Part shown: positions 1,586-5,057 of the stretch, piece by piece
How the letters are laid out: each line of letters begins with the position of its first letter
How positions within the stretch are numbered: position 1 is the stretch's first letter
Source: Fervidicoccus fontis Kam940
Lineage (GTDB): Archaea > Thermoproteota > Thermoprotei_A > Sulfolobales > Fervidicoccaceae
Reading direction: 5' to 3'
DNA length: 64,000 nt
Assembly: GCF_000258425.1 (NCBI RefSeq)
Contig: NC_017461.1
Location: 1,208,949-1,272,948, forward strand
Notes under the pieces: model-generated
Databases searched by the model: none
The model's input: only the letters and a program-made list of their open reading frames with translations
What the model was told of the DNA's origin: nothing
Translations under genes and position numbers: made by a program

Positions 1586-1786
1586 ATGAAAAGCGAAAGC
1601 AAAGAGGAAAGCAAAATTAAGGAAATGCTGTCAATGTGGCGAAAAATACTGAAACTGTCTAGAAGACCCGATAAAGAAGAATTTAATTTGCTGTTAAAGT
1701 TAAATATAATAGGGTTTACTCTAGTTGGAACCATCGCATACATAATTCACATTATGGTAACTGTTGTTCTTCCAGCGATAAGGTGA
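1586..1786 (+). CDS. secE: Preprotein translocase subunit SecE (Sec61 gamma)
   Basis: A 66-residue protein with a charged amphipathic N-terminal half (the SLSRRP-like segment KLSRRPDKEEF at about 24-34) and a single C-terminal membrane span (about 38-62). This is the archaeal SecE/Sec61-gamma layout, which clamps SecY in the membrane. It is first in the conserved archaeal string secE-spt5-rpl11-rpl1-rpl10. Its TGA lies inside the ribosome binding site of spt5, so the two are translationally coupled. Length is normal. Confidence 0.93.
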   Translation: MKSESKEESKIKEMLSMWRKILKLSRRPDKEEFNLLLKLNIIGFTLVGTIAYIIHIMVTVVLPAIR

Positions 1787-1791
1787 AAAAA

Positions 1792-2286
1792 ATGGAAAAT
1801 AACGAAAAAATAAATAATGGTGAGAAGCCAGCCGAGAAGAAAAGTTCATTTTATTTAATCAGAACAGTTTCTAGACAGGAGCTAAATGTAGCATTGCTTC
1901 TTGAGAGGAAAATTGCTCTTTCGCATTCTCCCATTTATTCAATAATTTTGCCTCCAAAGTTAAAGGGGTATTTGGTATTAGAAAGCCAAAAATCGAGTGC
2001 GGTTGAAGCTGTAATTAAGGATATGCAACATTTAAGAAAGAGAGTTTATGGAACACTTACAGTTGAAGATGTAGAAAGAATGACCAAGCCAAAAGCGACA
2101 ATCGAAACTTTAAATCCCGGAGATACCGTAGAAGTTATAGCAGGTCCATTCCAGGGCATAAAAGCGCAGGTAATTGAAATAGATAAAGTCAAGCAAGAAG
2201 TGGTTCTAAATATTTTAGAATCCGCATATCCGCTCAAAGTAACTATTCCGGGTGAGTTTGTAAAACCGGTAAAGAAGGTGGAATAA
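1792..2286 (+). CDS. spt5: Transcription elongation factor Spt5 (archaeal NusG)
   Basis: A 164-residue Spt5/NusG. The NGN domain (about residues 18-95) starts with FYLIRTVSRQE and binds the RNA polymerase clamp coiled coil together with Spt4. A KOW domain follows (about 105-160) with the signature PGDTVEVIAGPFQGIKA. I choose ATG 1792, placed 5 nt after AGGTGA at 1781-1786, rather than the overlapping GTG 1783. It sits between secE and rpl11 as in most archaea and stops one base before the rpl11 start. It keeps elongating polymerase processive. Nothing unusual is seen. Confidence 0.95.
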   Translation: MENNEKINNGEKPAEKKSSFYLIRTVSRQELNVALLLERKIALSHSPIYSIILPPKLKGYLVLESQKSSAVEAVIKDMQHLRKRVYGTLTVEDVERMTKPKATIETLNPGDTVEVIAGPFQGIKAQVIEIDKVKQEVVLNILESAYPLKVTIPGEFVKPVKKVE

Positions 2287-2287
2287 A

Positions 2288-2791
2288 ATGAGTGAAGTTA
2301 AAATTATAAATTTAAGCGTAAAAACAGGAAACGTTTCTCAGAAAGATTTAGAAGAAGCTAAAAAATATGGTTTTAATGTAGATGAAATAGCTGAAAAAAT
2401 AAATAAGAGGATAGGTGCTTTAAAAGAGAAGGAAGTAAAGATAACGATATATTTGTATCCTTCTGTTAAAGATTATATTATAGAAGTGAAGCCGCCTACA
2501 GTAACCGAACTACTTCTGTGGAAAGCTAAAGCAAAAGAGCCCAGCGGCGATCCTGCTCATAAAAAAGTTGGCGATATCAAGGTAGCAGATTTAGCTGAGG
2601 TAGCAATAATAATGAAAAACGAGTTACTTACAAGAGATCTAAAGAAAGCTGTGAAGATGCTTTTAGGGAGTGCAAGAAGCATAGGTCTCACAGTCGAGGG
2701 TAAAGACCCTAAAGATGTTCAGAAAGAGCTTGAAAGCGGCACATATGATAAAATAATAGAAGATTATATAAAGGATTGGGAAGAACATTAA
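2288..2791 (+). CDS. rpl11: Ribosomal protein L11, lacking the proline-rich N-terminal loop
   Basis: A 167-residue L11 of the large-subunit GTPase-associated centre. The C-terminal rRNA-binding domain is conserved, including EPSGDPAHKKVG and LLGSARSIGLTVEGKDPKDV. The N-terminal domain is aberrant: where other L11 proteins carry the KPGPPLGP-x-LGPLG loop after VEGG, this one reads VKTGNVSQKDLEEAKKYGFN, with no proline and about two residues fewer. That loop normally contacts elongation factors and is the thiostrepton site. ATG 2288 follows AAGGTG with good spacing, and genome order is normal, so this is the only L11 expected here. The frame is intact and the upstream sequence offers no alternative N terminus. 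Confidence 0.93.
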   Translation: MSEVKIINLSVKTGNVSQKDLEEAKKYGFNVDEIAEKINKRIGALKEKEVKITIYLYPSVKDYIIEVKPPTVTELLLWKAKAKEPSGDPAHKKVGDIKVADLAEVAIIMKNELLTRDLKKAVKMLLGSARSIGLTVEGKDPKDVQKELESGTYDKIIEDYIKDWEEH

Positions 2792-2864: not shown

Positions 2865-3524
2865 ATGGCTCAAGCGACAACATTAACGGAGAAGATAGAA
2901 AATGCTTTAAGAGAGGTATTGGAAAAAAGTCCAAAGAGAAACTTTAAGCAAAGCATTGAAATGATAATAACATTTAAAGAAATAGATCCAAAAAAGCCGG
3001 AATTTAAGATTAGAGAGAACGTATTTCTGCCTAATGCACCGAAAAAAGAACCAGAGATTTGTATAGTAGCTGACGGAGATTTGGCACTTCAGGCAAAGAA
3101 TCTAAATGTCAAACAGGTTATAGATAAAGCAATTTTGGATGAAATAAGTAAGGATAAGAAAAAAGCTAAAAAGATTGCAAAAAACTGCGATGTAATTCTT
3201 GTACAAACGGATTTGATGTCTCAAGTCGGTCGAACTTTGGGTCCAGCACTAGGACCTAGAGGAAAAGCTCCGATACCTTTGCCTCCAAGAAGCGATCTTC
3301 AATCAATATTGGAAAGATATAAAAAGATAGCAATTGTAAGAATAAAAGATCAGCCACAAATTCAAGTAAAAATAGGTACTGAAGATAATACGTTAAAAGA
3401 ACTGACTGAAAACGCAATTGCAATACTGAATGTAATAGAAAATAAGCTTAAGACTCTTTCAAATGTCGATGCTATATATTTCAAAAAAGCTATGGGACCT
3501 CCAGTAAAAATTAGAATGAGGTGA
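2865..3524 (+). CDS. rpl1: Ribosomal protein L1
   Basis: A 219-residue L1 forming the mobile L1 stalk that binds 23S rRNA. Family features include the N-terminal KIENALREVLE helix, ADGDLALQAK, the signature QVGRTLGPALGPRGKAP (about residues 121-137) and the C-terminal KKAMGPPVKIRMR. Length is normal for archaea. A 73-bp gap separates it from rpl11 with no strong ribosome binding site next to ATG 2865, although GGGTG occurs about 14 nt upstream. L1 represses its own messenger in some archaea; I see no clear mimic of the rRNA site in the gap. Its TGA overlaps the rpl10 ribosome binding site. Confidence 0.96.
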   Translation: MAQATTLTEKIENALREVLEKSPKRNFKQSIEMIITFKEIDPKKPEFKIRENVFLPNAPKKEPEICIVADGDLALQAKNLNVKQVIDKAILDEISKDKKKAKKIAKNCDVILVQTDLMSQVGRTLGPALGPRGKAPIPLPPRSDLQSILERYKKIAIVRIKDQPQIQVKIGTEDNTLKELTENAIAILNVIENKLKTLSNVDAIYFKKAMGPPVKIRMR

Positions 3525-3529
3525 GCATA

Positions 3530-4564
3530 ATGAGGCTTATAGTAAAACAGAAAGTTGTCCCTAGTTGGAAGGAAGAGGAAGTAAACGAATTAGTTAAATT
3601 AATGAAAGAATACCCTGTACTAGGAATAATTGATGCTAAAGATGTACCTGCAAGTTTGATCCAAAAAATCAAGGTGATGCTCCGAGATAAAGTCGATGAC
3701 GCTATTGTCATTAAAAGCGTAAAAAACAACTTATTTCTCATAGCTTTGGAAAAGGCAGACGTTAAAGGAAAAGAAAAACTGAAAGAAGTGATAAAGGACC
3801 AGAAAATATTCGTATTTTCAAAACTGAACCCATTTATGTTAGCGGCAATGATTAACAGAATGAGATTGCCTGCTCCTGCTAAAGCTGGAATGAAGGTTGA
3901 TAGAGAAATTGCAGTCGAGCCCATGGATACACACCTTCAGCCAGGGCCTCTGTTAAGTGCATTCGGAAAGCTAAAAATTCCCACAAAAGTTCAAAACGGA
4001 ACCATTTGGATTGCAAAAAGGACAGTACTCGCAAAGCCTGGTGATGTAATAAGCGCAGATCTCGCATCTATGCTTCAACGACTGGGCATTTCTCCTGGGG
4101 AAGTCGGTTTAAGCTTGCAGTATGCACTAGACGATGGTGTCCTATTACCTGCAGAATCTTTGAGCTTAAACATTGAAGAGTACAGAAATAGCTTAATCCA
4201 GTCATACATTCAGGCTATAAGCTTAGCATCAGAGATCGCATATCCTGAGCCTGAAGCGCTTAAGCTATCCTTAATAAAAAGCTATAAAAGGGCTTTGCAC
4301 TTATCTGCAGAAATTGGATACATTACAAGTGATAATGCAGAATATGTTTTGAGAGTTGCTGCATCTAAGGCATATAGCATTGTAGCTGCTATGGGCGACA
4401 AGGCAAAAGAATTGGGAATAGAAGGAGTTCAATTACAGAGACCTCCTGAAGGAGAAAAGAAGGAGGAGAAGAAGGAGGAAAAGAAGGAAGAGAAGGCTGA
4501 GGAAGAGAAAAAGGAGCTAAGCGAAGAGGAGCTATCTAGTGGATTAGGAGCATTATTTGGATAA
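3530..4564 (+). CDS. rpl10: Ribosomal protein L10 (P0), stalk base
   Basis: An archaeal P0 of 344 residues that binds 23S rRNA and L11 and carries P1 dimers on C-terminal helices. The N-terminal L10 domain (about 1-110), the archaeal insertion (about 110-185, including PGPLLSAFGKLKIPTK), the P1-binding helices (about 200-300) and a charged hinge ending [12 protein letters not shown] are all present. ATG 3530 follows GAGGTG (3519-3524) at proper spacing; an in-frame GTG at 3521 lies inside that site. The last 34 codons plus 11 bp after the stop are identical in DNA to the P1 gene. Confidence 0.96.
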   Translation: MRLIVKQKVVPSWKEEEVNELVKLMKEYPVLGIIDAKDVPASLIQKIKVMLRDKVDDAIVIKSVKNNLFLIALEKADVKGKEKLKEVIKDQKIFVFSKLNPFMLAAMINRMRLPAPAKAGMKVDREIAVEPMDTHLQPGPLLSAFGKLKIPTKVQNGTIWIAKRTVLAKPGDVISADLASMLQRLGISPGEVGLSLQYALDDGVLLPAESLSLNIEEYRNSLIQSYIQAISLASEIAYPEPEALKLSLIKSYKRALHLSAEIGYITSDNAEYVLRVAASKAYSIVAAMGDKAKELGIEGVQLQRPPEGEKKEEKKEEKKEEKAEEEKKELSEEELSSGLGALFG

Positions 4565-4688: not shown

Positions 4689-4733
4689 GGCATAAAAATA
4701 ATGATATTTTAATAGCATAAGGGGTGATGAACT

Positions 4734-5057
4734 ATAGAGTACATATATGCATCTCTCATGTTACATAGTGCAAAGAAAGACATTAATGAAGAAAATATAA
4801 AGAAAGTTCTAGAATCTGCGGGAATACAAGTAGATGATGTGAGGGTTAAAGCGCTTGTTGCAGCTCTACAGCAAATAAACATCGATGAAGTGTTAAAATC
4901 TGCTTTAGTAACAGGCGCAGTAGCACCTGCGGCACCTGCAGCTGCACCAGCTAGCGAGGAGAAGAAGGAGGAAAAGAAGGAAGAGAAGGCTGAGGAAGAG
5001 AAAAAGGAGCTAAGCGAAGAGGAGCTATCTAGTGGATTAGGAGCATTATTTGGATAA
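4734..5057 (+). CDS. rpl12: Ribosomal protein P1 (L12 stalk), apparent AUA start codon
   Basis: Archaeal P1 of 107 residues counted from 4734. Dimers bind L10 and recruit elongation factors with the C-terminal SSGLGALFG tail. The conserved N terminus [16 protein letters not shown] is encoded in frame upstream of the first ATG (4758), and the codon at the invariant initiator position is ATA (4734-4736). An in-frame TGA at 4728-4730 leaves only ACT between it and ATA. GGGGTGAT (4721-4728) sits at ideal spacing for 4734 but about 30 nt from 4758, where initiation would delete nine dimerisation residues. The 3' end is identical to that of rpl10. A base-calling error (ATG read as ATA) is the main alternative. 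Confidence 0.9.

Follow-up and report, generated by a model that had tools for sequence, protein, structure and literature searches.

The window, a 64,000-nucleotide stretch of the genome of Fervidicoccus fontis Kam940, carries the conserved gene order secE-spt5-L11-L1-L10-P1 (Table 1). The initial annotation had reported that the ribosomal protein L11 (uL11) encoded in this operon lacks its proline-rich loop while retaining a normal C-terminal rRNA-binding half, and alignment, Pfam matches and gene context bear it out on each of these points.

Table 1. Features of the uL11 locus in the F. fontis window
Feature	Position	Strand	Basis
Small membrane protein in the SecE position, opening the conserved gene order	1586..1786	+	Position and sequence character only
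Spt5/NusG (PF03439 + KOW)	1783..2286	+	Pfam
uL11 gene (rpl11), 167 aa; N-terminal domain without the loop, normal C-terminal RNA-binding domain	2288..2791	+	ORF, Pfam, alignment
uL11 residues 13-28, TGNVSQKDLEEAKKYG, replacing a proline-rich loop of 18 residues together with the beginning of helix 1; two residues deleted; helix modelled at 18-26	2324..2371	+	Alignment, AlphaFold
uL11 C-terminal rRNA-binding domain (PF00298), conserved	2495..2788	+	Pfam
uL1	2865..3524	+	Pfam
uL10/aP0, EXT (RL10P_insert) domain intact	3530..4564	+	Pfam
aP1 stalk protein, probably starting with AUA at 4734	4734..5057	+	Shine-Dalgarno-like GGGGTGAT at 4721-4728; in-frame TGA at 4728-4730

The uL11 gene and its neighbours

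The uL11 open reading frame starts with ATG, and the N-terminal part of its product reads VKTGNVSQKDLEEAKKYGFN, the prolines of the PxPPLGP motif being all absent. The segment at residues 13 to 28 has 16 residues and no proline, compared to 18 residues with three to five prolines in the canonical loop of relatives (e.g., GGKANPGPPLGPTLSPLG). A Pfam profile search found no match to PF03946 (L11_N) in this protein or elsewhere in the complete genome, a single contig of 1,319,206 bases, whereas all 14 control genomes had one; the PF00298 match scored 62.2 bits against a cutoff of 21.4. Genome-wide searches with PF03946, uL11 and N-domain profiles detected neither a second uL11, which the initial annotation had named as grounds for abandoning its claim, nor a split N domain, leaving a single uL11 in the genome. 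PxPPLGP is commonly present in uL11 without defining it; identity rests here on the C-terminal domain, the full-length alignment with relatives and the locus. The product is the organism's only uL11 and is presumably functional.

The suggestion that the P1 and L10 genes next door are odd did not hold up: L10 is ordinary, and so is P1 except for its probable AUA start, which is common among relatives. This start is probable because the conserved EYIYASL follows directly after the ATA, with an in-frame stop one codon further upstream and a Shine-Dalgarno-like stretch ahead. ATA or ATC occupies the same aP1 position in many relatives with ordinary uL11, indicating that the AUA start is not tied to the loss of the loop. 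Probable AUA (in some cases AUC) starts at the conserved position, preceded by a strong Shine-Dalgarno-like stretch, were seen at loci L036, L037, L039, L050, L051, L082, L258, L265, L270 and L277, among others; in genomes G000, G004, G005, G025 and G192 the frame opens just one or two codons upstream, so that no ATG, GTG or TTG start is possible. Other genomes, e.g., in families f11, f7 and f8, have ATG at the same position. The AUU start codon of bacterial infC is autoregulatory, and by analogy the aP1 AUA start may perhaps have such a role.

Altered uL11 forms in Thermoproteota

To the window's family (f1) belong eight of the genomes sampled, the window's included, and six of its seven relatives yielded a uL11 sequence. 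None of the eight passed the PF03946 cutoff, and the deletion is common to all seven recovered proteins (16 residues versus 18, zero or one proline versus three to five), with the segment length fixed and Asp-[LIV] at the same place in 7/7. The alignment across Thermoproteota proposed in the initial annotation thus found the loss to be family-wide. Named records with the same loopless form include Fervidicoccus sp. ARK-14 and metagenome-assembled genomes labelled Thermoprotei and Desulfurococcales.

Across 397 Thermoproteota genomes, 359 passed the L11_N cutoff and 38 fell below it. Among the matches listed, absent or weak L11_N falls in f1, genera g24 and g40 of family f6, genus g43 of family f8, f21 and f29, a grouping that covers 20 of the 27 genomes without any match. 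The names used below for these groups (Pyrodictiaceae-like, Thermoproteaceae/Thermocladiaceae-like, Aeropyrum-type) are presumptive assignments. The two Pyrodictiaceae-like genomes of g43, which read GGQVSEDALSTLKKSG, have a 16-residue replacement resembling that of f1, and Pyrodictiaceae-like records show graded decay of the loop (PPVGPAI, PPLSDSL, PGPQFDQI, SEKQLGPTI, TEDALSTL). The Thermoproteaceae/Thermocladiaceae-like genomes carry another loop, GGKVAVNPQFQDALKQAG in f21 and GGKVPPQAMQQLQGAG or PGKAGGPAVQQLSQYG in f29. That relatives carry PGPPLGP, as originally stated, therefore does not hold throughout, the motif being altered in these several groups too. A further, partly altered form was noted at L018/L059 in family f10, with THIPQLNSTL in place of PxPPLGPxL and the length unchanged.

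The most extreme reduction was found in seven genomes of g24 and g40 (loci L119, L120, L121, L122, L123, L125 and L143), where uL11 has about 100 residues and consists of the C-terminal RNA-binding domain alone. Two g24 genomes, G032 (1,669,696 bases) and G263 (1,595,994 bases), are presumably Aeropyrum pernix and A. camini, so Aeropyrum is probably among the lineages that have lost the entire N-terminal half of uL11. In G032, G263 and G300, all g24, spt5 and L1 flank the short gene, which begins MVKGSQVKPSTTELLL, an arrangement resembling an excision of the N domain between its first strand and the linker. L1 also follows the short uL11 in G330 and G394 (both g40), with another gene upstream, and the upstream context also differs in G303 (g24). 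The short uL11 of G303 (L143) has in addition GKNERALEKVSSEPFSQRLG in place of the conserved EPSGDPxHQK stretch.

A tree built from the EF-2 of 29 genomes places the window's family in a single supported clade and g43 next to a genus retaining PAPPLSD; the Thermoproteaceae/Thermocladiaceae-like genomes fall separately, and one or two events are needed to explain the domain-less genomes. With the canonical loop taken as ancestral, this topology supports at least four independent alterations of loop or domain.

Predicted fold, evolutionary rate and partner molecules

The AlphaFold model of the window's uL11 (pLDDT 90; block means of 76 to 88 over residues 11 to 30) keeps the N-domain order strand-helix-helix-strand-strand. 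Its helix begins at residue 18, compared to a loop extending to residue 21 in a canonical relative, and its best Foldseek match is the Methanocaldococcus jannaschii uL11 of 5d8h, a stalk base with thiostrepton bound. The N domain is thus predicted to retain the uL11 fold, although its helix starts earlier. The mean ratio of N- to C-domain identity, a descriptive figure from nonindependent pairs, stands at 0.65 for the window's family and 0.67 for Pyrodictiaceae-like sequences versus 0.84 to 1.13 for five canonical groups; on these sequence comparisons, the N domain appears to be evolving unusually fast in the two affected families.

In the affected genomes, no compensating change was seen in the three partners compared, namely EF-2, the GTPase-associated center (GAC) RNA core and the uL10 EXT domain. 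The window's genome has canonical H43/H44 RNA, and by the Rfam LSU model the core in affected genomes of the same order equals that of canonical relatives, with the A1067/A1095 equivalents kept. (A short IUPAC pattern applied across genomes had returned mostly noise and was replaced by this model.) In the f21/f29 genomes the H44 stem is different, evolutionary distance and the uL11 change being inseparable as its cause in this comparison. In 23S rRNA of G002, G263 and G032 (L215, L218 and L219), an insert with canonical flanks, probably an rRNA intron, interrupts the GAC RNA right after CCTCTAA. EF-2 is single copy (split over two contigs in G300); only three otherwise conserved columns (246, 479 and 541) mark the window's family, and none lies in the C-terminal fifth or near the C-terminal domain V. 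The uL10 EXT domain is kept in all genomes examined, including the domain-less ones, one g40 uL10 (L246) having been recovered solely as a C-terminally short frame. The initial proposal that the GTPase center has changed hence applies to uL11 but not to the H43/H44 core, EF-2 or uL10 EXT, all of which look like those of canonical relatives.

Interpretation of the loop loss

With several archaeal clades departing from the canonical form and no compensation visible, the best reading is that constraint was repeatedly relaxed on the half of uL11 that faces the factors, and not that the whole GTPase center was rebuilt, an explanation that we consider probable. The window's uL11 would bind the 23S GAC via its normal C-terminal domain. 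In the family ancestor, the proline loop would have been deleted, giving way to a short helix start of acidic character (x-x-D-[LIV]-x-x-x). Losses of this kind occurred several times in Thermoproteota and, in Aeropyrum-type genomes, went as far as the complete N-terminal domain. We infer that contact of the loop with translational GTPases became dispensable in these lineages, where factors would be recruited and activated by the aP0/aP1 stalk, the GAC RNA and the remainder of the factor site, and that factor kinetics may be affected. The ribosome should also lack the protein half of the thiostrepton pocket and hence would be drug resistant.

Known systems offer partial parallels. The canonical archaeal uL11 (M. 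jannaschii, PDB 5d8h/5col) has the same fold by AlphaFold/Foldseek and the same C-terminal RNA-binding domain, whereas the window's protein is without the proline-rich loop, has two residues fewer and is unmatched by PF03946. In eukaryotic uL11 (RPL12) the proline loop is also altered, with its length kept, and bacterial L11-null strains show that the whole protein can be dispensed with. The thiostrepton insensitivity of eukaryotic ribosomes has been ascribed to differences in uL11 sequence (PMC5960728). Eukaryotic uL11 keeps the helix 1 GPLG motif, described as conserved in eukaryotes and archaea (PMC9122527), whereas the window's uL11 keeps only the final Gly, with two residues deleted. Bacterial uL11 proline mutants (PMC5960728) likewise indicate that the loop is dispensable, but these are laboratory mutants and the change reported here is fixed family-wide. 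In complexes from eukaryotes, helix 1 makes contact with eEF2, and rigidifying GPLG lowers synthesis in yeast (PMC9122527), so that a loss would be expected to carry a cost. We found no description of a loopless or N-domain-less archaeal uL11 in the open-access literature searched, and a PDB sequence search with a Pyrobaculum-like uL11 query gave no close relative and no recognizable loopless form among the matches listed.

The fixed length of the segment, the Asp-[LIV] present in all seven family members and the similar 16-residue replacement in the Pyrodictiaceae-like g43 hint that a new form was selected and that the loop did not purely decay. The main alternative, which draws its weight from the constant length and the invariant Asp, is that the acidic helix start is a new, lineage-specific, selected contact to EF-2 or another translational GTPase, in keeping also with the fair to good confidence with which the helix is modelled. 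We regard it as rather unlikely, since neither the EF-2 C-terminal region nor the GAC RNA shows family-specific change, the whole N domain is fast evolving and other groups simply dropped it. That thiopeptide-like antibiotics in the habitat drove the loss, the drug pocket going with the prolines on which thiostrepton stacks, would fit the resistance conferred by mutating these N-domain prolines in bacteria and archaea (PMC5960728); it is quite improbable, as the other known route, rRNA change at A1067/A1095, was not taken. Supply of the missing N domain in trans by another protein would make full loss in Aeropyrum-type genomes less surprising at a near-universal site, but an N-domain profile search of the seven genomes concerned gave no convincing match, the lone weak one lying within EF-2, and we hold it to be very improbable. 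Sequencing, assembly or annotation error can be practically dismissed, given the same form in seven independent f1 assemblies and a domain loss common to seven genomes, of which two are complete and in a single contig.

Both the uL11 proline loop and the N domain count as conserved components of the factor-binding center and as a drug pocket. It seems somewhat better than an even chance that several hyperthermophilic lineages translate without the uL11 factor-contact element, or without the whole N-terminal domain, and without compensation in rRNA or EF-2, part of a near-universal GTPase-associated center thus being dispensable in nature. The loss qualifies the statement that helix 1 motifs are conserved across archaea, and its repeated natural occurrence, very probably including the cultured genus Aeropyrum, provides ready-made comparisons for the role of this element in EF-2 turnover.
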